Source: Azorinus chamasolen
Lineage: Eukaryota > Mollusca > Bivalvia > Cardiida > Solecurtidae
Length of the DNA: 64,000 nt
NCBI GenBank assembly: GCA_963576725.1
Contig: OY755239.1
Coordinates: 56,959,953-57,023,952 of the forward strand
Direction: 5' to 3'
In this document: in pieces, positions 38,890-52,753 of the stretch
Numbering within the stretch: the stretch's first letter is position 1
How the letters are laid out: each line of letters starts with the position of its first letter
Translations under genes and position numbers: made by a program
Notes under the pieces: model-generated
The model's database searches: none
Seen by the model: only the letters and a program-made list of their open reading frames with translations
What the model was told of the DNA's origin: nothing

Positions 38890-40268
38890 TTTTTAAAACA
38901 TATATACCTCCTAGACCACCTGACCTTTGATCTAGTGACCTCAACTATAGAGGTCATCTAGTGGTCATGACTAATCACCACAGCAAGAAGATCCTAAGCC
39001 AAACCACTGATCATTTATTGATCTGAAAACATTTCACAAGTTAAGGTCATGGTGACCTTGACCTTTGACCTATCTAGTGGTCACGACCAACTACCACATC
39101 AAGTTTGAAGATCCCGAACCAAACCATTGAGCAGTTATTAATCGGAAACCATTCCATCAATTAAGCTCACGATCACCTTGATCTTTGACCTAGTGACCTC
39201 GAAAACAATAGGGCTCATCTAGTTGTCATGACCAACCACCACAGCAAGTTTGAAGATACTAAGCCAATCCCTTGAGCAGTTATTGATTGGAAACCATTTC
39301 ACCAATTAATGTCATGGTGACATTGACCTTTGATCTAGTGACCTCAAAATCAACAGGGGTCATCTAGTGGTCATGACCAACCACCACAGCAAGTTTGAAG
39401 ATCCTAAGCCAAACCCTTGAGCAGTTATTGATCGATAACCATTTCACCAGTTAAGGTCTTGGTGACCTTGACCTTTGACCTAGTGACATCAAAAACAACA
39501 GGGCTCATCTAGTTGTCATGACCAACCACCTAAGCAAATGTGAAGATCCTAAGCCAAACCCTTGAGCAGTTATTGATCAGAAACCATTTTACCAGTTAAG
39601 GTCATGGTGACCTTGACCTTTGACCTAGTGACCTAAAAACAATAGGGATCATCCACTGGTCATGACCAACTTCTGCAGCAAGTTTGAAGATTCTAAGCCA
39701 ACCCTTTGAGCAGTTATTGATCGGAAATGATTTTACCAGTTAAGGTCATGGTGACCTTGACCTTTGACCTAGTGACCTCAAAAACAACAAGTCTCATTTA
39801 GTTGTCATGACCAACCACCTATTAAGCAAATTTGAAGATCCTAAGCCAAACCCTTGAGCAGTTATTGATCAGAAACCATTTTATCAGTTAAGGTCATGGT
39901 GACCTTGACCTTTGACCTAGTGACTTAAAAACAATAGGGTTCATCCAGTGGTCATGACCAACTACCACAGCAAGTTTGGAGATCCCAAGTCAAACGCTTG
40001 AGCAGTTATTGATCGGAAACTATTTCACCATTTTAGGTCATTGTGACCTTGACCTTTGACCTAGTGACATCAAAAACAATAGGGGTCATCTAATTGTCAT
40101 GACCAACCACCACAGCAAGTTTGAAGATTCTATGCCAAGTCGTTTATTAGTTATCGTTCGGAAACCATCGATCTACCGACCGACCGACCGACAGACCGAC
40201 AGACCGACCGACCAACCGACATGTGCAAAGCAATATACCCCCATTTTTTCAAAAGGGGGTATAACTAG
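38890..40268 (+). mobile_element. Pearl/Helitron-like element: 145-bp array, microsatellite, hairpin, CTAG
   Basis: About nine tandem monomers with a 144-148 bp period carry GTGACCTTGACCTTTGACC and GGTCATGACCAACCACC. They are followed by a (CCGA/CAGA)n tract (40155-40222), a hairpin ACCCCC...GGGGGT (40239-40260) and CTAG (40265-40268). Bivalve pearl elements are known for tandem core repeats plus a tetranucleotide microsatellite, and Helitrons end in a hairpin followed by CTRR. The 5' end is not defined. No Rep/helicase is encoded, so it would be non-autonomous. Confidence 0.65.
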
Positions 40269-42919: not shown

Positions 42920-42923
42920 CTAT
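42920..42923. other. Target site duplication CTAT (left)
   Basis: CTAT immediately precedes the LTR here and immediately follows the other LTR at 52750-52753. A 4-bp duplication is normal for Ty3/Gypsy insertions. Confidence 0.7.
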
Positions 42924-43121
42924 TATGGTAAATATGCTAGCTTAGCTCTAAACTTACCGGTAAATCTTCAGGTCGTCTTCTTGGACCGTCAGAAGTAAGG
43001 GTTTTTGTTCAGCTTCGCCAACACACGTCTGCTTCGTTAGGATTCGTAATAACAACAACCAGCTTCCTACGTCACTTCCGGCGAAGCGTCCCAGCCGTTG
43101 TCGTACTTGAATCTCACCACA
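42924..43121 (-). repeat. 3' LTR
   Basis: 198 bp, reading TGTGGTGAGATTC ... ATATTTACCATA on the minus strand. It appears identical to 52552-52749. Short for a Gypsy LTR. It contains CCG/GTAAGT, a splice-donor-like site. Confidence 0.93.
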
Positions 43122-43136
43122 CTCCTCCCCGTTTTC
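43122..43136 (-). other. Polypurine tract
   Basis: GAAAACGGGGAGGAG on the minus strand directly abuts the TGTGG start of the 3' LTR, where the plus-strand DNA primer of LTR elements is generated. Confidence 0.85.
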
Positions 43137-43204
43137 TAATGAAGGCCTCATTCTACCTCTCTGTCATCCCCAGGGTAGACGTATGCCTGCCCTGGTCAAC
43201 TACT

Positions 43205-46003
43205 CTAACGGTGGTACAGACGTCGTGCGTTGGCCTCCGTGGCCACCAAAATTGCCTCCACCGATTCTGGCCGGATTGCGGCGACTGCAGCCGCCACATC
43301 CCCAATGTATGCAGGGGTCATCGTCCTTAGACCGGCAGCCACTGGCATGTATGGAGCGTCTGTCTCCAATAGGAGCCTGTCCAAGGGAATCCTCCTCAAG
43401 GCTTCTTTCTGCTCCCTATTAAAACGTGCCGCTTTACCAGTGACTCCGAAATGACAATCCGGGAAGGCTGCTCTCCACTCCCGCAATTGCTGGATCCCAC
43501 TTCCGAAACAGTGGAAATGAATCCTCTGCTCCGGATCACAGTGTGCCTTCACAAACTGAAGGCAATCCGCCGACGCCTCTGCTGCCAGCCCATCTGTACG
43601 GTCCCCTCGAACATGAAGGACTAAGACCTTCTCCAAGGAACAGTACCCTAGCACTTGCCCAAGGACTCTCTTCTGGCCTTCTCTATCGCTGCTAGGGTCA
43701 CTGTAATCCAGTCCCACTTCCCCAAGGGCACATACACTGGACTGTCGTAGCAAAGACTCCAACACTGACGCCTTCTGTTCAGTGAACTCCCCGATCTTCT
43801 TTGGGTGTATTCCCACTGCAACCCTCCATTTGGGTGGGGCATGCAGTAAAACCTTGTCGTAGGTTTTGGGATCACAATACACAACAACTCCCCCAGATAG
43901 AATGGTTGTGTTGTTTGGCTCCACCTCTGTGACCTGTCGTGATAGCATGTCGATATCCAACGCAGATCTTCCCACTACTGCTGCCAACCGATCCGCGTGG
44001 AAATGGCTATCGAAAGCCAACGGCAAGGAGACATCCCTCAATTCTGGCCTCCTTTTCTCAGGTACACTCTTGGATGCTGCCATCCCCTCTGCCGCCAGGC
44101 CTCTCACCACCTGCGCAAAAGATGGCTTCTGTACGGGAGATGACTCTGTTTCACTCTCCAACAATCTAGCCTCTTCCTGAGCTGAAAGAGACGTCACCGG
44201 AGTACCATTTGATCCACTTTGATCTAGGATCCCTGGGGGTGGAGTAAGCGTCAACTTCAGCTCCCCAGTTACTCCCTCTGCTTGTATCATTGACGTCAAT
44301 ACCGTCTCCTTTCCCTCAGCAAGAAGTGTCACCCTCCTCTGTTGTTGCACACTTTCACCAATCTCTCCAACCTCTGCTGACCCTTCACAAGAGACCTCCA
44401 TTGCCTCTTCAACCCTGCTCTCCCTCGATTGACTCGCCAACTCCAGCCTGACATCCCCCTCGTCCATCTCATTTCTCCCCTTTGTCGTACTGACCGACTT
44501 CCCTTCCTTCTGGTGTAGTCGATCCAGCACCGTCGAACCACATTCCCTAAATACGGAAGACTTCACCTCATCCGACACCTTCCCCATTAGAAATGACAGC
44601 GGCCTCCAATGGATCAGCGCTGCCGGTGAGCTGACAGGAGCTATAGTGAATCTCCTGGGCAGCTTCCACTTAGCATACCGACAGAGTTTATACATTGCCC
44701 TGATGGTAGTTGGCGTGATGGTCGACTCTTCCATTGGCATTCCTTCTTGGACTACCTTCATTAGGCCACTCACTGAGCGTCTCCCAGTGATCGCCTGTGC
44801 CAGCATCTCCAACCCCCGCAATCTCTTCCGGTGGAACCTAGGGTCCGCAAGCATCTCAGGCGACTCCAGATCATGAAAAACTCCTGGCAGGTGAGTTCCC
44901 ATTACATGTCGCTTTAGACGCCTAGCCTTCGCGTTACAGTTGGGAAACGGACAATGAGTGCGCTTGTGCACCTTCTCTATCTTGGCTGCCTCAACAGGAG
45001 GTGGAGAAAAGTCCCTTCTCGGTCGCTTCCTGGGTGGAGCACCTGCAGTATGCTTACTTGATTTCCTCGACCCGTGACTCCCGGTTTGTGTAGCGATCGT
45101 ACGGGTCCGTTTCCTTCTGTCCTCCGACCTGCGTTCAGGTGAGACATTCCTTCGCCTCTCCTTTCCATCCCTTCCAACCTCCTCAGCCTTCTGGTAGAGA
45201 GAAACGTCTACTTGCCTCTCCCTAATAGACTCTGTCCTGGTTGCCTTTAGACTTGTCCCAGACCTGTCTCTCCGTTCCTCTGGGCTACCATACCTAGAGG
45301 CGACAGATGTACCTCTCCCACGAGTGCTTACTTGTATTGGAGAGACGCCCCTTCCTCTATTACTGATCTCCTGAGCCGGCCTCTGGCCCCTTCCAATACC
45401 GCTCCGCCTCATATCCACCAGCTGGTCTTTGGCCTCTCGCCGGTCTGTCACAGGTGGAGATGCGGGCTTCCTTGCTGAAGTATGCTCATGACCAGCATCA
45501 TAGTCTCCCCGCCTAGACCTTGATCTCTCCGGTGAGACTTGAACATGCCTCCGGTGGCAATCCACAGACACTGGCCTCTCCGGGGGAATCCTCTCACGCC
45601 TACCTCCAAAATCCTCCTGGCGGCGATCCTTACTCCGGTGCGATCTGTTCCTAGATCCCTCCGAAATTTCCCTCGTGCGGTGCCTCCCTCTCCCACCACG
45701 AGAGTCCTCTACAACTGGCACTCTAGCTGAACCCTCTTCCAGCTGGGGAAAATACCATTGCAGCTCCTGCCGAGACATCAGGAAAGTGCCATAATGATGA
45801 AGCTCCCTTATCCAGCCTCGGATTCCACGCGTCCGGGCCAACTCGTACTGGCCCCTCACCACTGCCAACAAGGTGGAGACGTCCAGGTGCCTCACCAAGT
45901 TGAGCTCATGAACCATGTCCTTTGCTGGCATGAGGTGACCTCGTCTCGTCTCCCTCCGAATGGTCTCCTCTTGCCTCGACTCTTTCCTCACCCATTCTGC
46001 CAT
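43205..46003 (-). CDS. ORF3: zinc-finger/basic region fused to a TatD-family metallonuclease
   Basis: 932 residues, third ORF of the Gypsy element. Residues 1-95 form a mixed alpha-helical-looking domain I do not recognise. Residues 100-330 are very rich in Arg, Ser, Asp and Glu and probably disordered, ending in a nuclear localisation signal PPRKRPRRDF. Residues 351-371 hold a C2H2-like finger (C351, C356, H366, H371). Residues 656-932 are a full TatD/amidohydrolase-fold domain: HxH (H667, H669) in FDSHFHAD, H733 in VGIHP, E762 in LGEVGLDY, H797 in LHVRG, H829/H831 in IHFHCFG and D882 in LLETDAPY. These are the metal ligands expected of TatD-type 3'-5' exonuclease/endonuclease enzymes. The protein has no signal peptide or transmembrane segment, so it is not an envelope. 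The ATG lies 22 nt after the pol stop, in the same frame, just behind a splice-acceptor-like tract. TAG stop at 43205. Confidence 0.9.
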   Translation of the reverse strand: MAEWVRKESRQEETIRRETRRGHLMPAKDMVHELNLVRHLDVSTLLAVVRGQYELARTRGIRGWIRELHHYGTFLMSRQELQWYFPQLEEGSARVPVVEDSRGGRGRHRTREISEGSRNRSHRSKDRRQEDFGGRRERIPPERPVSVDCHRRHVQVSPERSRSRRGDYDAGHEHTSARKPASPPVTDRREAKDQLVDMRRSGIGRGQRPAQEISNRGRGVSPIQVSTRGRGTSVASRYGSPEERRDRSGTSLKATRTESIRERQVDVSLYQKAEEVGRDGKERRRNVSPERRSEDRRKRTRTIATQTGSHGSRKSSKHTAGAPPRKRPRRDFSPPPVEAAKIEKVHKRTHCPFPNCNAKARRLKRHVMGTHLPGVFHDLESPEMLADPRFHRKRLRGLEMLAQAITGRRSVSGLMKVVQEGMPMEESTITPTTIRAMYKLCRYAKWKLPRRFTIAPVSSPAALIHWRPLSFLMGKVSDEVKSSVFRECGSTVLDRLHQKEGKSVSTTKGRNEMDEGDVRLELASQSRESRVEEAMEVSCEGSAEVGEIGESVQQQRRVTLLAEGKETVLTSMIQAEGVTGELKLTLTPPPGILDQSGSNGTPVTSLSAQEEARLLESETESSPVQKPSFAQVVRGLAAEGMAASKSVPEKRRPELRDVSLPLAFDSHFHADRLAAVVGRSALDIDMLSRQVTEVEPNNTTILSGGVVVYCDPKTYDKVLLHAPPKWRVAVGIHPKKIGEFTEQKASVLESLLRQSSVCALGEVGLDYSDPSSDREGQKRVLGQVLGYCSLEKVLVLHVRGDRTDGLAAEASADCLQFVKAHCDPEQRIHFHCFGSGIQQLREWRAAFPDCHFGVTGKAARFNREQKEALRRIPLDRLLLETDAPYMPVAAGLRTMTPAYIGDVAAAVAAIRPESVEAILVATEANARRLYHR

Positions 46004-46024
46004 TGCTCTAAAACAAAAATAATG
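46004..46024 (-). promoter_or_regulatory. Putative splice acceptor before ORF3
   Basis: On the minus strand the spacer between pol and ORF3 reads CATTATTTTTGTTTTAG/AGCA followed by ATG. This is a textbook polypyrimidine tract plus AG. It would place ORF3 on a spliced RNA, as env is in retroviruses. Inferred from sequence only. Confidence 0.55.
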
Positions 46025-48343
46025 CTACGGTAAGGCGAGAGATTTAACCGGACGACCCACCTCACAACTGGGACACACATACTGAGATAGCTTTCGAGCC
46101 TTTCTCACCGTCATTCCCACACACTCACAATGCAACCAATCCAAACACAAATCACACTGTAACATGGCTCGCCCATCATCCTTCCCCTTACACACACAAT
46201 ATGATACCTCCGTGCCTGAAGCTATCTGACCTTCCCTTTTCAACGCCTCCGGGTCCGTCTTTAACCGTTTAATCCAAGCTGGGAGGACCTGATCTTGGCA
46301 TCTTTTCAGCCTATCATGATTTATGGTAAACAACTGATTACCCATCTTTACCTTAAACAATGAAGGGGATAATGTTTTTACGATAATCCCAGGGCCTTTC
46401 CAGGGCAACCAAAGCTTCTTGCTCTTCCCCTTTGGCACAGCTTTATCAAGAATATACACAGCGTCCCCCTCCCTATAAGGCTTTACTAAAACTCGAAGAT
46501 CGTAATCTCTCTTCATTCTTTCCTGACTCGCTCCTAATTGCTCCCGCGCCGTGGAATGTGCGAAAAGCAACGAATCTCTCAACTCTCCCACATACCCATC
46601 TACAGCCCGAGCGGTATCTGTAGGAGCTCTGAACATAAGGTCAGCAGGCAAATTAACCTCTCTACCCAGCATCAACCTATTAGGGGTGTATCCAGTGTTT
46701 CTATTCACAGAAGCTCTCATTGCCCCAGCAATTTGAGCCAGGTGTTTATCCCAAGAGGAATTTTTATTAACAAAACACCTGACCGCATTCATCAAGGTTC
46801 TGTTGAAACGCTCCACTTGACCATTTGCGGATGGACGGTAAGCTGTCGTTCGCGTTTTATGTATCTGCATCAGATCACAAACAGCTGCGAATAGCTGGCT
46901 TTCAAAGTTTCTCCCCTGATCCGTATGGATTTTAAACGGGTACCCAAACCGAGAGAAAAATTCGGTAATTGCCGCATGAGCAGTGACTTCAGCTGTCTGC
47001 GATGGAAGCGGAATGCACTCCACCCATTTTGTGAACTGATCAACCATAACCAAGACATATTCATTACCTGCCACGGTTTTTGGCAATGGACCCAGGAAGT
47101 CTAGGTGAACCCTTTCCATAGGGGCTCCTGCTTGATAGCACTTCATAGGATACCTTGGGTGACGGTTAGGCTTCTTGCTCCTGTTGCAAACATCACAGCC
47201 GTTTACAAAGAGCTTTATGTCCTTTGACATACCATACCAGTAGAACTGCCTCTTCATTCTAGCTGCTGTCCTTTCTGTTCCTTGGTGACCAGCTGACGGA
47301 AGATTATGATTTGCCCTCATGACCTCTTCACGAAGACTTTTTGGAACCACAATCTTTTTTGATTGCTCTGGTTTTTGGCGGTACAAGATCTTGTCATCAC
47401 GCAAAAACTCCTCTTTATGAATCCAAGCGTTCTTCGCAGCTGGGCTCGCCAAAAATAACCTCCCCTCTGACGGTTCCGAACCATCATTAAGCCACTCATT
47501 CACAAACCGCAAATCAGTGTCATCCTCTTGCTTCTCTTTAAGGTTGCCGTGTGTAATATCCTGCAAAAGAATTTCACAGACTTTACTGATCTCTTTCTCC
47601 TGCAGTCCCGCATTACTTACTGCAAGGCTACTCACTTGATCAGCCAACACGGGGGTCCAAACAACATTCAGCCTGTTGTGCCCCAAACCCGTGTCCGACC
47701 TACTTACTGGTAACTGTGACAATGGTACAGCATAGTCCACATCTGTAACAAAACCAGACCAATTCCCATGAGCCTTCTTACAATAAGGGCACCCTCCACA
47801 AGGCAATTCGCTTAATGCCATTCCTTGTCGATAACCTGAACAGACAGTGGTTCCCAACGGAATCCGAGACAAAGCATCCGCATTCAAGTGTTTCTTCCCT
47901 TGCCTATGCTGTACCACCATATTGTATTGACTCAATTCCTCGAGCCACCTTGCCAATTGTCCTTGTGGTTCTCTGAAATTCACCAACCAAAGTAAACTGT
48001 GATGCTCTGTTCTAACCACAAATTCTCTCCCCAATAAGTAATGTCGATACTGACGGGTGAATCGAACAACTGCCAACAACTCCTTGCGAGTCGTACAATA
48101 TCTCCTTTGTTCACTGGATAAAGCCAGACTACCATATGCAACAACCTTCTCCTCCCCATTCTGGATTTGTATGAGCTCAGCCCCTATTGCAAAGTCTGAC
48201 GCGTCTGTATCCAATACAAAAGGATCCACACTATTTGGCAAAGCTAACAGGGGAGCCGTAGTTAATAGAGCTTTAATCTGCTGAAATGCTTGCTCCTGTT
48301 CTGCGTCCCATTTAAATTTATTTTTCCCCGTCAAAGCATACAA
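46025..48343 (-). CDS. pol: pol, second part: RNase H, integrase, PHD finger
   Basis: From the first ATG after the internal stop the frame gives 772 residues; the open frame extends upstream to the stop at 48410 and encodes the missing RT connection (FLGLVNYHR-type motif). Residues about 40-160 are RNase H (D45, E88, D156). The integrase has an HHCC zinc finger (H346, H353, C383, C386) and a catalytic core D415, D475, E511 (DD35E spacing). Residues 716-760 make a C4HC3 PHD finger (C716, C718, C730, C733, H738, C741, C757, C760) after the integrase C-terminal domain, where other Gypsy elements may carry a chromodomain. A PHD finger reads histone tails, so it may steer integration. TAG stop at 46025. 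Confidence 0.93.
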   Translation of the reverse strand: MYALTGKNKFKWDAEQEQAFQQIKALLTTAPLLALPNSVDPFVLDTDASDFAIGAELIQIQNGEEKVVAYGSLALSSEQRRYCTTRKELLAVVRFTRQYRHYLLGREFVVRTEHHSLLWLVNFREPQGQLARWLEELSQYNMVVQHRQGKKHLNADALSRIPLGTTVCSGYRQGMALSELPCGGCPYCKKAHGNWSGFVTDVDYAVPLSQLPVSRSDTGLGHNRLNVVWTPVLADQVSSLAVSNAGLQEKEISKVCEILLQDITHGNLKEKQEDDTDLRFVNEWLNDGSEPSEGRLFLASPAAKNAWIHKEEFLRDDKILYRQKPEQSKKIVVPKSLREEVMRANHNLPSAGHQGTERTAARMKRQFYWYGMSKDIKLFVNGCDVCNRSKKPNRHPRYPMKCYQAGAPMERVHLDFLGPLPKTVAGNEYVLVMVDQFTKWVECIPLPSQTAEVTAHAAITEFFSRFGYPFKIHTDQGRNFESQLFAAVCDLMQIHKTRTTAYRPSANGQVERFNRTLMNAVRCFVNKNSSWDKHLAQIAGAMRASVNRNTGYTPNRLMLGREVNLPADLMFRAPTDTARAVDGYVGELRDSLLFAHSTAREQLGASQERMKRDYDLRVLVKPYREGDAVYILDKAVPKGKSKKLWLPWKGPGIIVKTLSPSLFKVKMGNQLFTINHDRLKRCQDQVLPAWIKRLKTDPEALKREGQIASGTEVSYCVCKGKDDGRAMLQCDLCLDWLHCECVGMTVRKARKLSQYVCPSCEVGRPVKSLALP

Positions 48344-48409
48344 GGGAACTGATACCTTAGCTAGATTTTTTAGGAAAATCCTATGGTAATTAACCAGGCC
48401 AAGAAATTG

Positions 48410-50119
48410 TTAAACTTCCTTACTATTCTTAAGAGTAGGCCAATTTAACACAGCCTCAATGTGTTCCTGCCCTAACCTAATACCCGTTTGACTAACCATT
48501 CGCCCCAAAAACTCCACTTCTCGTTGGAAAAACTCACATTTCTTCGGTTTAAGCCGAAGCCCATATTCACGGAACCGTGTGAAGACTTTCCGAAGGTTTT
48601 TAAGATGTTCCTCGAAACTCCTTCCCAGAACAAGTATATCATCCAGAAAGGCCAACAGGATATCCCAGTTCAAACCTCGTAAAACCAGATTCATTACCCG
48701 ACAATATGTAGCTGGCGCATTGCAAAGCCCAAAAGGCATCCTCACAAACTCGAAAAGCCCATACTTGGTAATAAATGCCGTCTTCTTAATGTGTTCCTTC
48801 TTTATTCGCACCTGCCAATATGCGGAATTGGCATCTACTTTCGAAAAGAAAACATTCCCTGCCAAAGTATCTAAACAGTCTTCCACTAATGGTAAAGGAA
48901 AAGAATCCTTTTCAGTTGCTTTATTAACTTCACGGTAGTCAACACACCAACGAACAGAACCATCTCGTTTCCTGATCAACACTGGCGCTGACGCCCATTC
49001 CGACTGTGAAGGCTGTATTACTCCAGCTTTTAACATTTTGTCCAAATGAGCTTTCTCTTCATTCGCGAATCCCAACGGGGTGCGTCTCATCCTTTGTCTA
49101 ACCGGTTTTTCTGAACCGGTGTCTATAGCATGTTCAATTTCTGAAAAATCACCTAGATCATACTCACTGTTTGCAAACACATCCTGAAACTCGCAAACTA
49201 ACTTCTGAAATAACCTTCCTTCTTCCTGACCTAGCTGCAACATAGACTTGCCAACCATGTCCTTCAAGTGTTCCGGTATTTCCGCTACCTTTTGATTAGC
49301 TAGGGAGACATTAGCCACCCTAACTGGGTCTTCTGCTGACAGTACTGTAGCAGGGAGAGCCCGTCCTACTGACTGATCCTTTTTCAACACTATATTGTGG
49401 TCAGTTAGATTCACTACACACACCAACGGACCATCCCCTTTCCTATGGAGCGATCGCGGCACTACGGCCTCACTTTCATACAACGGCTCTAACATAAAAT
49501 CCTCGGCTTGCTCCTGAACTTTACAGAGTACCCTTTTTACTGTGTTTGGTGGAATAACTGTACGTGAACTAACAGACACACGGCAAGCTGAAAATGAAGA
49601 CCCATCACTTCCAATTTCCATAGGAATTTTCTCCTCACCCACACAGAGCACACCCTCGGTGAGATTAATATTTATCCCATGACGCTTAAGAAAGTCGAGC
49701 CCCAATAGCATTTCATCTTCTATCGGTGCTACATAAACTTCTTCCTCATACTTATTCAACCCGAGGCTCATAGCCAAAGGTCCAACGACCGATCCGCTCA
49801 TTTTCATCTCCCTACCAGCTGCCTGCAGGACAACCTTCCTAGAAGGGGGACGGTTCCATCCTAGCTGCTTAAAAAACCTATCGGATATAATGGTGACCTG
49901 AGCTGCCGTATCTACCACTGCCTGAACCTGATGCCCCTCAATACTGATAGGTACCTTAAGCATCGACCCAGACTTAATTTGGTTGATCACCAGCTCAACT
50001 TCCTCATTACTGTCCTCCGAAATCCGTTGAATTTCATCTTTACCAGGGCCTCCTTGATCATGTGAGACATTAAGGGCCTCCGATGATCCTACATCCTCCA
50101 TACCGAAAAGCCGGAACAT
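48410..50119 (-). CDS. pol: pol, first part: aspartic protease and reverse transcriptase (ends at in-frame TAA)
   Basis: 569 residues from the first ATG; the frame is open back to the gag stop at 50198, so readthrough would add 26 residues. Retropepsin active site VDTAAQVTIISD (D70-T71-A72) with the later LLGLDFL flap/Ile-Gly-like motif. RT: LIRKRDGSVRWCVDYREVN, DANSAYWQV, MPFGLCNAPATYCRVM and the catalytic FLDD box (D493-D494; usually YLDD or YIDD, here Phe first). The TAA at 48410-48412 stops translation just past the RT thumb, and the same frame continues into the RNase H. With intact neighbours and identical LTRs this looks like a single recent nonsense change (or sequencing/assembly error) that disables this copy. 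Confidence 0.93.
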   Translation of the reverse strand: MFRLFGMEDVGSSEALNVSHDQGGPGKDEIQRISEDSNEEVELVINQIKSGSMLKVPISIEGHQVQAVVDTAAQVTIISDRFFKQLGWNRPPSRKVVLQAAGREMKMSGSVVGPLAMSLGLNKYEEEVYVAPIEDEMLLGLDFLKRHGININLTEGVLCVGEEKIPMEIGSDGSSFSACRVSVSSRTVIPPNTVKRVLCKVQEQAEDFMLEPLYESEAVVPRSLHRKGDGPLVCVVNLTDHNIVLKKDQSVGRALPATVLSAEDPVRVANVSLANQKVAEIPEHLKDMVGKSMLQLGQEEGRLFQKLVCEFQDVFANSEYDLGDFSEIEHAIDTGSEKPVRQRMRRTPLGFANEEKAHLDKMLKAGVIQPSQSEWASAPVLIRKRDGSVRWCVDYREVNKATEKDSFPLPLVEDCLDTLAGNVFFSKVDANSAYWQVRIKKEHIKKTAFITKYGLFEFVRMPFGLCNAPATYCRVMNLVLRGLNWDILLAFLDDILVLGRSFEEHLKNLRKVFTRFREYGLRLKPKKCEFFQREVEFLGRMVSQTGIRLGQEHIEAVLNWPTLKNSKEV

Positions 50120-50197
50120 ACCTTCATACTCCTCATACAGACCACTAGCCTCCTGGGTCGAAAGTTGGCCTAATTCTCCGACCCCGTGGAGTTTAAA

Positions 50198-51850
50198 TCA
50201 TCTTCCTCCCCGACTAGCGACACCTTTTTCTCCCCTTTCCTGGGGGCAATCTCTCGCCATATGTCCAGTCTCTCCGCAGTTGTAACACGTCATAGCCCCT
50301 CTAGCTTGTGACCTTGAGCGGGAACGGTTACTCTGAACAAGAAGTTTCAAAGACTCTATACCCTCTATAATGGAACCAACCTTGCCTTTCAACTCCTTAA
50401 CATCTGATTCCAAGTGCCTTAATTTTTCCCCATCCACACTATCAGATTTAAACTGCACCTTCTTTGGTTCCGACGTCTCGGAAGTTCCAGAATTTCTCCG
50501 CTGATGTTCATATCTCACTTCCGCCTTACAGACATTTGCCTCAGCGAAAGGGTCCAGCCCGTAACTCTCAGGTTCTATTCCAATCTGTCGAATGTCTCTC
50601 CTACCTTTCCCAAACATAACCTTATCTGCATGTTGGTGCCAACGGACCTTATCAATAGCCTCATCCATTGTCCTCGGTCGAGACGTCAGCGCATAATGTC
50701 CTGCCTCTCTGTCCGAAAGACCCTGACAGAATTGTAATATGGCCTGGGTATAGATATGAGAATCATCGAGATCTGGGTATGCATGCATCGCCAGTCGTAT
50801 GATCCTATCTGCCCATTCGACTACTGACTCCTTCGGGCTCTGAGAAGCATACATAAACAACATCTGTGTTGTTTCTGGGAGATCTTTTATATCAAACCTC
50901 TTCTCAAGCCTATGCATCATATCAGTGAAGGTGACGGTTGGCTCTCTCTTCACTATACTGGAGAAGAACTCACTGGCTGATCCCATCAAACACCAACACA
51001 AACGATCTTTCTTTTCCTTGTCAGACCAATTCTGTCCCTCAGCGAATGAAAGGAATTTGACCTTGAAACCTTGCCAATTGTCCTTCCCATCAAAAACAAT
51101 AGACCTTGGCATATTTCCCGACCCATGCTTTCTCTCACCATCCTCCCTCTGTTGTCCCATAGCAGCCGGCCGGTTTGTCTGTGGGTTAAGAGGATAAACA
51201 GGGTCTCTCACCTGAGCCCTAAAAGTTGATCTCGGTGGCATATTCCAACGGTCATCCCATCTACGATCAAAAACATTGTCTTGACCCTGCTGATATTGCC
51301 GTCTTGCAGCATAGAGCTGATCCAGGTACTTATCCCTGTCCTCCATTTTCCGATCTGGGTATGCCATAAACGGTTTGACATCACGTAGTGTTCGACCATA
51401 TGCATCATAGGCACCCCAGCCTCCTTCATGGTAATTGCCGTCATACCCTCTTGGCTGAGATGGAGCATATGGACTCGCCATTGACATTTGCCCCAATGGC
51501 TCATCCGTGCCTCCTCTGGCGTAAAAACTATAACTATCCCTTGGGTCTATTCCTGTAGGATATGCAGATTTCACACCTGCTGCGCCAGGAGTCATACTCG
51601 GTGCACGACTAAACCCACTGGCACTATAGTCATCCGGATAGCGACTATAGTCAAAACTATTGGACAGTTGACTCGCATGTCTAATATCTGAGTTTTCAAA
51701 CAGGTCAGGCGTAAGAATGCCAAACTTATCCCTCAACTCCAATATTCTCACTGCTGTCTTCCGTCCAATCCCTGGCACACTCATTAACTCTGACAATGTG
51801 CCAAAGTTAATTTTCACTTTCACCCCAGCGTGAGGTGGGTCTAAACTCAT
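50198..51850 (-). CDS. gag: gag with N-terminal helix-hairpin-helix and CCHC zinc knuckle
   Basis: 550 residues. Residues 11-51 form a helix-hairpin-helix unit with the PGIG hairpin (26-29), a non-specific DNA-binding fold known from ComEA-like and DNA repair proteins and unusual in Gag. Residues 60-240 are Tyr/Pro/Gly/Arg-rich and probably disordered. Residues about 250-410 are the retrotransposon Gag core (DGKDNWQGFKVKF ... FCQGLSDREAGHYAL). A short predicted coiled coil (about 465-505) precedes an Arg/Ser patch and the CCHC knuckle C522, C525, H530, C535. The stop is TGA, directly followed in the same frame by open sequence into pol, suggesting stop-codon readthrough. The ATG at 51850 is the first in the frame. 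Confidence 0.92.
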   Translation of the reverse strand: MSLDPPHAGVKVKINFGTLSELMSVPGIGRKTAVRILELRDKFGILTPDLFENSDIRHASQLSNSFDYSRYPDDYSASGFSRAPSMTPGAAGVKSAYPTGIDPRDSYSFYARGGTDEPLGQMSMASPYAPSQPRGYDGNYHEGGWGAYDAYGRTLRDVKPFMAYPDRKMEDRDKYLDQLYAARRQYQQGQDNVFDRRWDDRWNMPPRSTFRAQVRDPVYPLNPQTNRPAAMGQQREDGERKHGSGNMPRSIVFDGKDNWQGFKVKFLSFAEGQNWSDKEKKDRLCWCLMGSASEFFSSIVKREPTVTFTDMMHRLEKRFDIKDLPETTQMLFMYASQSPKESVVEWADRIIRLAMHAYPDLDDSHIYTQAILQFCQGLSDREAGHYALTSRPRTMDEAIDKVRWHQHADKVMFGKGRRDIRQIGIEPESYGLDPFAEANVCKAEVRYEHQRRNSGTSETSEPKKVQFKSDSVDGEKLRHLESDVKELKGKVGSIIEGIESLKLLVQSNRSRSRSQARGAMTCYNCGETGHMARDCPQERGEKGVASRGGR

Positions 51851-52530
51851 GTTGACTAAAATCTAATTTGCATATTTAATCAAATACAAAATTTACAAGA
51901 AACAATGAAATATGATCATCAAAAACAAAAAGAGAATTCAAATAGATTTACCTCTACTGAGACTATTCAACATGAGCGAGTGAAATTAACGAGACTTAAG
52001 AGCCATTAAAATCAGCGGTTTTTCAATTTTCTCTAGATGTCATGGTTAATTAAACCCAAGAAAATTAATCAAGGAGTCAATTGAAGAATTTTCGAATACC
52101 TCTACTAGAACAGCGAAGTATGGTCAATTAAACTGAAAAAGAATTCAATTACCTCTATTGCATCAGACTGTTAGTAATAAAGTTTCCTCAACTCGTATCA
52201 ACATTCCATAGAAAACAAGTACATTCAAAATGGCGGTGTTTTATGCGCATACATTCGGCGCAGGGCGGAAGTCCCTAAAATACCCGCCAAAACAATTTAC
52301 TTGATACGTATCTATTGTTAATTAAACGTTACCAAACAAATGTACCGTTTGCCAGACTGTACATTATTTTACTAAAATAACGCTAATACAAACACTAATG
52401 CAGTGATCACAAGTATAAAAAGGTTTCTTGCTGTCACACTAGACTAAACTGTTCGTCCTTCGGAGAGGTTTTCTCCTTCTCGAGCGGTCGCCTATGTTCA
52501 GCGGAATTTCCCAATTAAACTGCGTAACCA
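51851..52530 (-). other. Untranslated leader of the Gypsy element
   Basis: About 680 bp between the primer-binding site and gag, without a long frame. It holds three similar TAGAGGTA sites on the minus strand (GT at 51951/51950, 52099/52098 and 52152/52151) that look like splice donors. It is probably where packaging signals lie, but none can be recognised. Confidence 0.6.
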
Positions 52531-52551
52531 GGTTAGTGCCGACAACGCCAA
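52531..52551 (-). other. Putative tRNA primer-binding site
   Basis: Directly after the 5' LTR on the minus strand the sequence starts TTGGCGTTGTCGGCACTAAC. TGGCG...-type starts complement a tRNA 3' CCA end. The tRNA species was not identified. Confidence 0.6.
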
Positions 52552-52749
52552 TATGGTAAATATGCTAGCTTAGCTCTAAACTTACCGGTAAATCTTCAGG
52601 TCGTCTTCTTGGACCGTCAGAAGTAAGGGTTTTTGTTCAGCTTCGCCAACACACGTCTGCTTCGTTAGGATTCGTAATAACAACAACCAGCTTCCTACGT
52701 CACTTCCGGCGAAGCGTCCCAGCCGTTGTCGTACTTGAATCTCACCACA
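52552..52749 (-). repeat. 5' LTR
   Basis: 198 bp, no differences to 42924-43121 seen by eye. It should carry the promoter and polyadenylation signals, but no TATA box or AATAAA is obvious. A CCG/GTAAGT donor-like site lies at 52586/52585, close to the 3' side of the LTR. Confidence 0.93.
52580..52590 (-). promoter_or_regulatory. Putative splice donor in the 5' LTR
   Basis: The minus strand reads ACCG/GTAAGTTTA, a full-consensus GTAAGT. If transcription starts upstream in the LTR, joining this donor to the acceptor at 46008 would remove gag and pol and give an ORF3 mRNA. Confidence 0.4.
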
Positions 52750-52753
52750 CTAT
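52750..52753. other. Target site duplication CTAT (right)
   Basis: Matches 42920-42923. After removal of one copy the host sequence would read CAATTTACTATGAAAGCAG. Confidence 0.7.

Follow-up and report, generated by a model that had tools for sequence, protein, structure and literature searches.

A TatD nuclease gene in the envelope position of an old Gypsy retrotransposon clade in the bivalve Azorinus chamasolen

In errantiviruses, the env-bearing Gypsy elements, and in retroviruses, a third gene follows pol and is expressed from a spliced message. Here we describe a Ty3/Gypsy long terminal repeat (LTR) retrotransposon whose third gene, ORF3, has the same place and is predicted to be spliced, but encodes a TatD nuclease, and no envelope glycoprotein was found. 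The element lies in a 64-kb stretch of the genome of the bivalve Azorinus chamasolen (C5:56959953-57023952, hereafter the window; the assembly comprises 1.72 Gb in 137 contigs). Non-envelope enzymes as ORF3 after pol, a nuclease included, are likewise found in the bdelloid rotifer LTR elements Vesta and Juno, where ORF3 encodes a DEDDy exonuclease or a GDSL esterase (PMC5408684; this paper, PMC10085689 and PMC12709183 are all cited from excerpts). In the view of that study's authors, splicing typically yields the messages for ORF3s of LTR elements; a role that they suggest is 3'-end processing of RNAs made by the element. The bdelloid nuclease is of the RNase D-like DEDDy type, whereas here it is TatD, a term absent from the excerpted text of PMC5408684. 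Moreover, the bdelloid ORF3s showed no significant departure from neutrality within genomes, in contrast to the purifying selection in the best-resolved pairs and the co-descent with pol seen here. Given the bdelloid DEDDy-exonuclease ORF3s, a nuclease in this position is an already known kind of arrangement; the TatD ORF3 is unusual in its depth, its selection and its link to TATDN2. No TatD ORF3 in an LTR element was found among the papers listed in searches of the open-licence PMC literature.

Sequence evidence of several kinds indicates that ORF3 belongs integrally to an old clade of Gypsy LTR retrotransposons and is maintained there by selection: its nuclease is complete, it stands after pol, its modular architecture is common, it has co-descended with pol, and it has been under purifying selection. 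Across at least 12 families, then, a retrotransposon lineage would have retained a nuclease as its regular third gene, with selection on TatD equal to that on reverse transcriptase (RT) in the best-resolved pair. Because the enzyme class is known and has a cellular relative, TATDN2, the role of non-envelope ORF3s in LTR elements becomes testable. The gene and its parts are located in the window as follows.

43205..46003, minus strand: ORF3, an open reading frame of 932 codons in the env position, that is, between pol and the 3' LTR
45734..45976, minus strand: N-terminal helical domain of ORF3, residues about 10-90 (profile match; predicted local distance difference test, pLDDT, mostly >90)
44534..44971, minus strand: C2H2-like zinc finger and helical module of ORF3, residues about 345-490 (profile, Cys/His pattern, pLDDT mostly >90)
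43211..44014, minus strand: TatD nuclease domain, ORF3 residues 664-931 (profile, ligands)

The original prediction had placed a complete TatD nuclease in ORF3, and had named a failed TatD match or loss of the metal ligands in all other copies as grounds for giving it up. Neither was observed. ORF3 matches PF01026 with 138.4 bits, far above the curated cut-off of 27, and covers the full profile (1-253 of 253). The metal ligands HxH, E, H, H and D are present in order, the domain has the TatD barrel fold, and the ligands are retained, column by column, in 181-192 of 195 TatD domains. The HxH motif (FDSHFH, residues 664-669) is that of group II, to which TATDN2 and TATDN3 belong (PMC10085689). 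Judged by its sequence, ORF3 therefore contains a complete group II TatD nuclease domain. Human TATDN1 and TATDN3 and E. coli TatD, YcfH and YjjV are 19-25% identical to this domain; their PDB chains comprise 259-301 residues and have no zinc-finger module.

The post-pol position, together with an env-like splice acceptor described below, would also suit a replacement of env, in which ORF3 serves as an entry or particle protein and the TatD fold is structural. We consider this very improbable, since TatD is the sole Pfam family in ORF3, the hydropathy of the window protein is highest (1.49) within the TatD domain, and the conserved ligands would be unnecessary for a structural role. No strongly hydrophobic segment was detected in the first 60 residues by the hydropathy measure used (peak 0.99), and a search for Pfam families other than TatD found none. 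Among 46 ORF3 relatives, 13 have a 19-residue hydropathy peak of at least 1.6, not assigned to domains individually. By Pfam and hydropathy, then, this third gene does not have the features of a membrane fusion glycoprotein.

A protein search with the TatD part returned 63 database matches, 46 of which have the same C2H2-like zinc-finger/helical module upstream. Of the other 17, two are P0032 and P0048 and fifteen are proteins of bacterial type with PF05547; these fifteen (P0049-P0063, mostly of 760 amino acids) form a separate group of different architecture in which TatD is joined to PF05547. The Cys/His pattern of the zinc finger is present in 46 of 48 proteins, and the profile of the N-terminal helical block matches 24 of 183 database proteins; the profiles of this block and of the zinc-finger/helical module were built by iteration on that same 183-protein set. 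Both modules are modelled with high confidence. Named sources of ORF3-type proteins include the genera Pinctada, Haliotis, Mya, Pecten, Dreissena, Elysia and Littorina as well as the echinoids Diadema, Strongylocentrotus and Lytechinus. Residues 1-540 of ORF3 are strongly basic (pI 10.9), and in 27 of 42 proteins the 40 amino acids upstream of the finger contain a KRxK-like cluster, where shuffling predicts 7.3. Four ORF3-type proteins (P0003, P0004, P0008 and P0085) are filed under a Sedimenticola metagenome-assembled genome and probably represent animal host DNA in the bin. Another, P0040 (720 amino acids), opens with a segment resembling the helix-hairpin-helix (HhH) motif of gag and continues with the zinc-finger and TatD portion of ORF3; such a protein would be expected from a message spliced from gag to ORF3 or from a copy that recombined in some other species.

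We fetched 20 ORF3 loci from the genome. In 14 of them (L009, L013, L015-L020, L022-L026 and L028) protease (PR), RT, RNase H-integrase (RH-IN) and a PHD finger lie upstream, in this order and on the same strand, in agreement with the env position that had been proposed from the window alone. As for the remaining six, L010 and L027 are short LTR-bracketed copies with internal deletions, L027 retaining ORF3 only; L014 has gag-PR and ORF3 between LTRs; L012 and L021 have no pol within 10 kb; and L011 holds a degenerate ORF3 (L011:748-4234) with five tandem zinc-finger/helical modules and a partial sixth. L021 has a 1417-codon open frame in which zinc finger and TatD are about 2.7 kb apart, making it a candidate for either a divergent element or a domesticated gene. 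Zinc finger and TatD share a single open frame at 13 of the 20 loci, and in L019 the TatD end is out of frame. ORF3 sequence lies between paired LTRs in the window, L010, L014 and L022-L027. The two LTRs are 100% identical in four of these (the window, L023, L024 and L025), which have therefore been active recently.

The association also holds when the search starts from pol. With the RH-IN part as query, 57 copies were scored, and among the matches listed TatD lies 0-4.5 kb downstream of 33. Eight pol copies were picked from families missing from the ORF3 match list and their downstream sequence was inspected; in seven, ORF3 directly follows the PHD finger (L034 and L035 being near-copies). 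The eighth, L036, has lost nearly all of ORF3 between two sites sharing about 12 nt and retains the 3' LTR, and is thus a natural ORF3-less gag-pol element. Seven of the 24 pol copies without a listed match were inspected: L029, L033 and L035 have ORF3, L036 does not, and in L043-L045 pol runs on into the first part of ORF3. In total, 40 of the 57 pol copies were examined, and ORF3 sequence is present in 39 of them. In L029, a member of a pol family with many copies, ORF3 is shortened and begins within the zinc-finger module.

The genome holds at least 93 distinct TatD loci, counting only rows that cover TatD and leaving out zinc-finger-only rows and one fragment; two of the loci, on C10, look like exons of host TATDN2. 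ORF3, comprising the zinc-finger module and TatD, is common to a clade represented in this genome by at least 12 families, so that a non-envelope enzyme gene after pol and within LTRs is shared by whole families. This number of loci, with the same order repeated in many families, refutes the notion that a host TATDN gene was inserted once into one element or that ORF3 is an assembly artefact, the former being a possibility that the original prediction had itself raised. Its proposal that the element had captured the gene needs to be modified: TatD is indeed in the element, but it is not this element's alone, being present throughout the clade and in mollusc and echinoid relatives. The same distribution makes ORF3 old.

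We next compared the histories of the two genes. In trees of 12 families, pol and TatD give the same ladder (L022, L031, L034, L029/L033, L030+L032), and the pair L023+L024 is recovered in both; the window, L013 and L018 are placed weakly or differently in the two trees. Distances of pol and TatD are correlated (Mantel Spearman 0.68, with 0 of 5000 permutations as high), whereas an earlier comparison with six families was uninformative. For selection, nonsynonymous (N) and synonymous (S) changes in TatD pairs were counted according to Nei and Gojobori; pairs differing by few substitutions are uninformative, and the synonymous rate (dS) is saturated between families. The best-resolved pair, L022/L026, has 11 N and 49 S changes in TatD, with omega of 0.06, the same as for RT in this pair. 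TatD omega is 0.10 for L022/L027, 0.11 for L026/L027, 0.04 for L013/L017 (2 N, 14 S) and 0.26 for L013/L028, while L015/L012 has 0 N and 11 S. The low omega in the best-resolved pairs indicates that TatD has been kept by purifying selection while the copies moved, rather than picked up once by chance.

Expression of ORF3 can be approached through splice signals, scored with an approximate matrix, with the window's own acceptor score as cut-off. The top donor score across the leader and gag start of the window belongs to the LTR site CCG|GTAAGT, and donor-like sites 31-42 nt from the LTR end are present in the window, L022, L023, L024 and L025. An in-frame ATG near the start of ORF3 is preceded, at a distance of 0-6 nt, by an acceptor scoring at least as high as that of the window at 10 of 15 loci and in 8 of 12 families; as background, 24 of the 1724 ATGs of these elements, those at ORF3 starts included, have such an acceptor. 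From the LTR donors and the acceptor at the ORF3 start, an env-like spliced ORF3 message is predicted, in the window between a donor at 52586/52585 and an acceptor at 46008/46007.

Where did this nuclease come from? In a careful tree of 50 domains, a subset of an 84-row tree from which the long-branched P0043, P0045 and P0143 were left out, ORF3 forms a single clade (support 98/97). Its sister (99/97) holds metazoan TATDN2, sea-star-type zinc-finger-TatDs (the type of P0186, P0187 and P0190) and coral CCHC-TatDs, and bacterial TatDs fall outside both (100/99). In the quick tree of 84 rows, the ORF3 branch has a support of 91 and the three long-branched, finger-bearing proteins are unplaced. 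The trees thus support one origin of ORF3, which lies outside the TATDN2 clade and is not a TATDN2 orthologue. Like metazoan TATDN2, its sister, ORF3 ends in a group II HxH TatD domain that follows a long N-terminal region; metazoan TATDN2 proteins are named either "3'-5' RNA nuclease" or "putative deoxyribonuclease TATDN2". Unlike ORF3, most TATDN2-like proteins lack the zinc-finger/helical module: among the matches listed, 113 of 119 have no match to its profile even at E 10, and the six that do are mainly sea-star-like proteins. The coral and other CCHC-knuckle TatDs (P0212, P0218, P0230 and P0298), present in many copies, resemble ORF3 in joining TatD to a nucleic-acid-binding module but branch within the TATDN2 side; they are perhaps another mobile or domesticated TatD.

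Since zinc-finger-TatDs occur on both sides of the ORF3/TATDN2 split, the module is probably older than the split. Forcing all finger-bearing rows into one clade was weakly rejected (AU p 0.039), in a test whose group was defined once a first tree had been seen and whose tree does not contain P0043, P0045 and P0143. Capture of a cellular TATDN-like gene, as first proposed, agrees with the sister relationship to the TATDN2-holding clade, but it is one of two readings, the other being that TATDN2 was domesticated from an element. In the latter case, the common ancestor would be a retroelement zinc-finger-TatD, and TATDN2 a retrotransposon nuclease that has lost its zinc-finger module; these elements would then still carry the original hybrid-resolving enzyme, evolved to finish retrotransposition. 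The zinc-finger-TatDs on both sides of the split suggested this idea, which we regard as a long shot, because the module could also be ancestral in a cellular gene captured once and because TATDN2 has been described with prokaryotic members too (PMC10085689). Metazoan TATDN2 is reported as a nuclease of R-loops on which the germ cells of fish depend.

Haliotis TATDN2 shares 59 and 63% identity with the two exon-like matches on C10, against at most 39% for the other rows of that search; these two look like the host's own TATDN2, apart from the elements. Conversely, four database proteins named TATDN2 (P0075 from Lytechinus, P0077 from Mytilus, P0086 from Mizuhopecten and P0089 from Mya) group within the ORF3 clade; they are probably encoded by retrotransposons rather than by repair genes. 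Annotators should therefore be aware that some TATDN2-named proteins are probably retrotransposon-derived.

The kinship to TATDN2 bears on function. TATDN2 is reported to be an RNase that resolves R-loops (PMC12709183, citing earlier work on the human protein), and by this kinship RNA:DNA hybrids are, as a guess, at least as good a substrate as those first proposed for ORF3, namely DNA ends, cDNA during integration or targets in host defence. We favour the following reading, delivery steps included, at a probability of roughly 0.47. ORF3 would be produced from a spliced subgenomic RNA, joining the LTR donor to the acceptor at the ORF3 start as for retroviral env. The basic N-terminal half would bring the protein into the nucleus, and the zinc-finger/helical module and basic stretches would bind nucleic acid. 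The TatD domain would then strip RNA from hybrids or trim 3' ends in replication or integration intermediates, candidate targets being leftover genomic RNA on cDNA and R-loops at transcribed or new copies. Such activity would help to complete retrotransposition.

Several observations weigh against this scenario. The hybrid substrate is guessed from kinship, and TATDN1 and TATDN3 act on DNA (PMC10085689). No acceptor of the required score was found at the ORF3 start in 4 of 12 families (L013/L016, L023, L029 and L031), the acceptor measure was refined after a first look at the sequences with ORF3 starts kept in the background count, and the LTR donor score of L022 is weak. L010 and L027 were considered as retrocopies of a spliced message, but proved to be plain internal deletions. 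The existence of L036 means that ORF3 is dispensable or can be supplied in trans. TatD is frameshifted in L020, pairs with which give ratios of 1.70 and 0.99. Finally, the nonsynonymous rate (dN) of TatD exceeds that of RT between families (0.37 vs 0.12 for L023/L024, 0.53 vs 0.25 for window/L018, and 0.48 vs 0.27 in a third comparison), so that over longer times TatD is more variable than pol.

This faster change leaves room for a role in an arms race and somewhat lowers our confidence in action on hybrids. ORF3 could be a counter-defence factor that destroys nucleic acids which would silence or betray the element, whether small RNAs, antisense transcripts or cDNA in the cytosol. A separate gene in the env position under selection suits a factor acting in trans, TatD outpaces both RT and RH-IN between families as a gene in conflict might, and the ORF3-only copy L027 exists. 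Nonetheless, we find counter-defence doubtful: the sequence points to no target, and within L022/L026 TatD has a dN of 0.018, no higher than the 0.022 of RT and the 0.031 of RH-IN.

A better case can be made for action on DNA, in which ORF3 would work before integration or in its course, trimming cDNA ends 3'-5' or removing AP sites and damaged 3' ends. The 3'-5' exonuclease activity of human TATDN1 and TATDN3 is directed mainly at single-stranded DNA, both are AP endonucleases on double-stranded DNA, the three E. coli paralogues are AP endonucleases as well (PMC10085689), and ORF3 has the same metal ligands. On the other hand, ORF3 is nearer to TATDN2, reported as an RNase on R-loops (PMC12709183), than to the bacterial TatDs sampled, and trimming of cDNA ends could damage integration. 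On balance, we hold a DNA substrate to be a serious possibility, if an unlikely one, and RNA:DNA hybrids remain the substrate we favour.

The window contains one LTR element, at 42924-52749 on the minus strand. As the original prediction stated, it is a Gypsy element, with LTRs, a short target-site duplication (ATAG) and the domain order gag-PR-RT-RH-IN. Its remaining features are as follows.

52750..52753, no strand: 4-bp target-site duplication ATAG, 5' side (read from sequence)
52552..52749, minus strand: 5' LTR, 198 nt, same sequence as the 3' LTR
52580..52588, minus strand: splice-donor-like site CCG|GTAAGT in the LTR, 33 nt from the LTR end (top donor score)
52533..52551, minus strand: primer-binding-site-like stretch adjoining the 5' LTR (read from sequence)
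50198..51850, minus strand: gag with N-terminal HhH motif, PNMA/gag-like core and CCHC knuckle (domain search)
48410..50197, minus strand: pol part 1, aspartic protease and RT, with an in-frame stop at its end in the window copy
46025..48409, minus strand: pol part 2, RNase H, H2C2 zinc-binding domain, integrase core and C-terminal PHD finger (domain search)
46008..46029, minus strand: splice-acceptor-like pyrimidine-rich tract and AG, 4 nt upstream of the ORF3 start codon
43122..43136, minus strand: purine-rich tract adjoining the 3' LTR on its inner side (read from sequence)
42924..43121, minus strand: 3' LTR, 198 nt, same sequence as the 5' LTR
42920..42923, no strand: 4-bp target-site duplication ATAG, 3' side (read from sequence)

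With identical LTRs and the 4-bp ATAG duplication, the insertion is recent. However, pol of this copy is interrupted by an in-frame stop after RT and before RNase H, and the gag frame is unlike that in related copies; the copy may therefore be defective though young. Pol is a single open frame in 6 of the 14 other pol-bearing copies fetched.

Two further domains of the element recur in its relatives. The integrase reading frame ends in a PHD finger (46064-46198, minus strand; PF00628, 34.4 bits against a cut-off of 24), which is found again after integrase in related families and could read histone marks to choose targets; no PHD finger in a Gypsy integrase appeared in the titles or abstracts of the papers found on the subject. 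The helix-hairpin-helix at the gag N-terminus (51719-51826, minus strand; PF12836) is found again in several families. Close to the element, at 38987-40168 of the window, lies a tandem array with units of about 145 bp.

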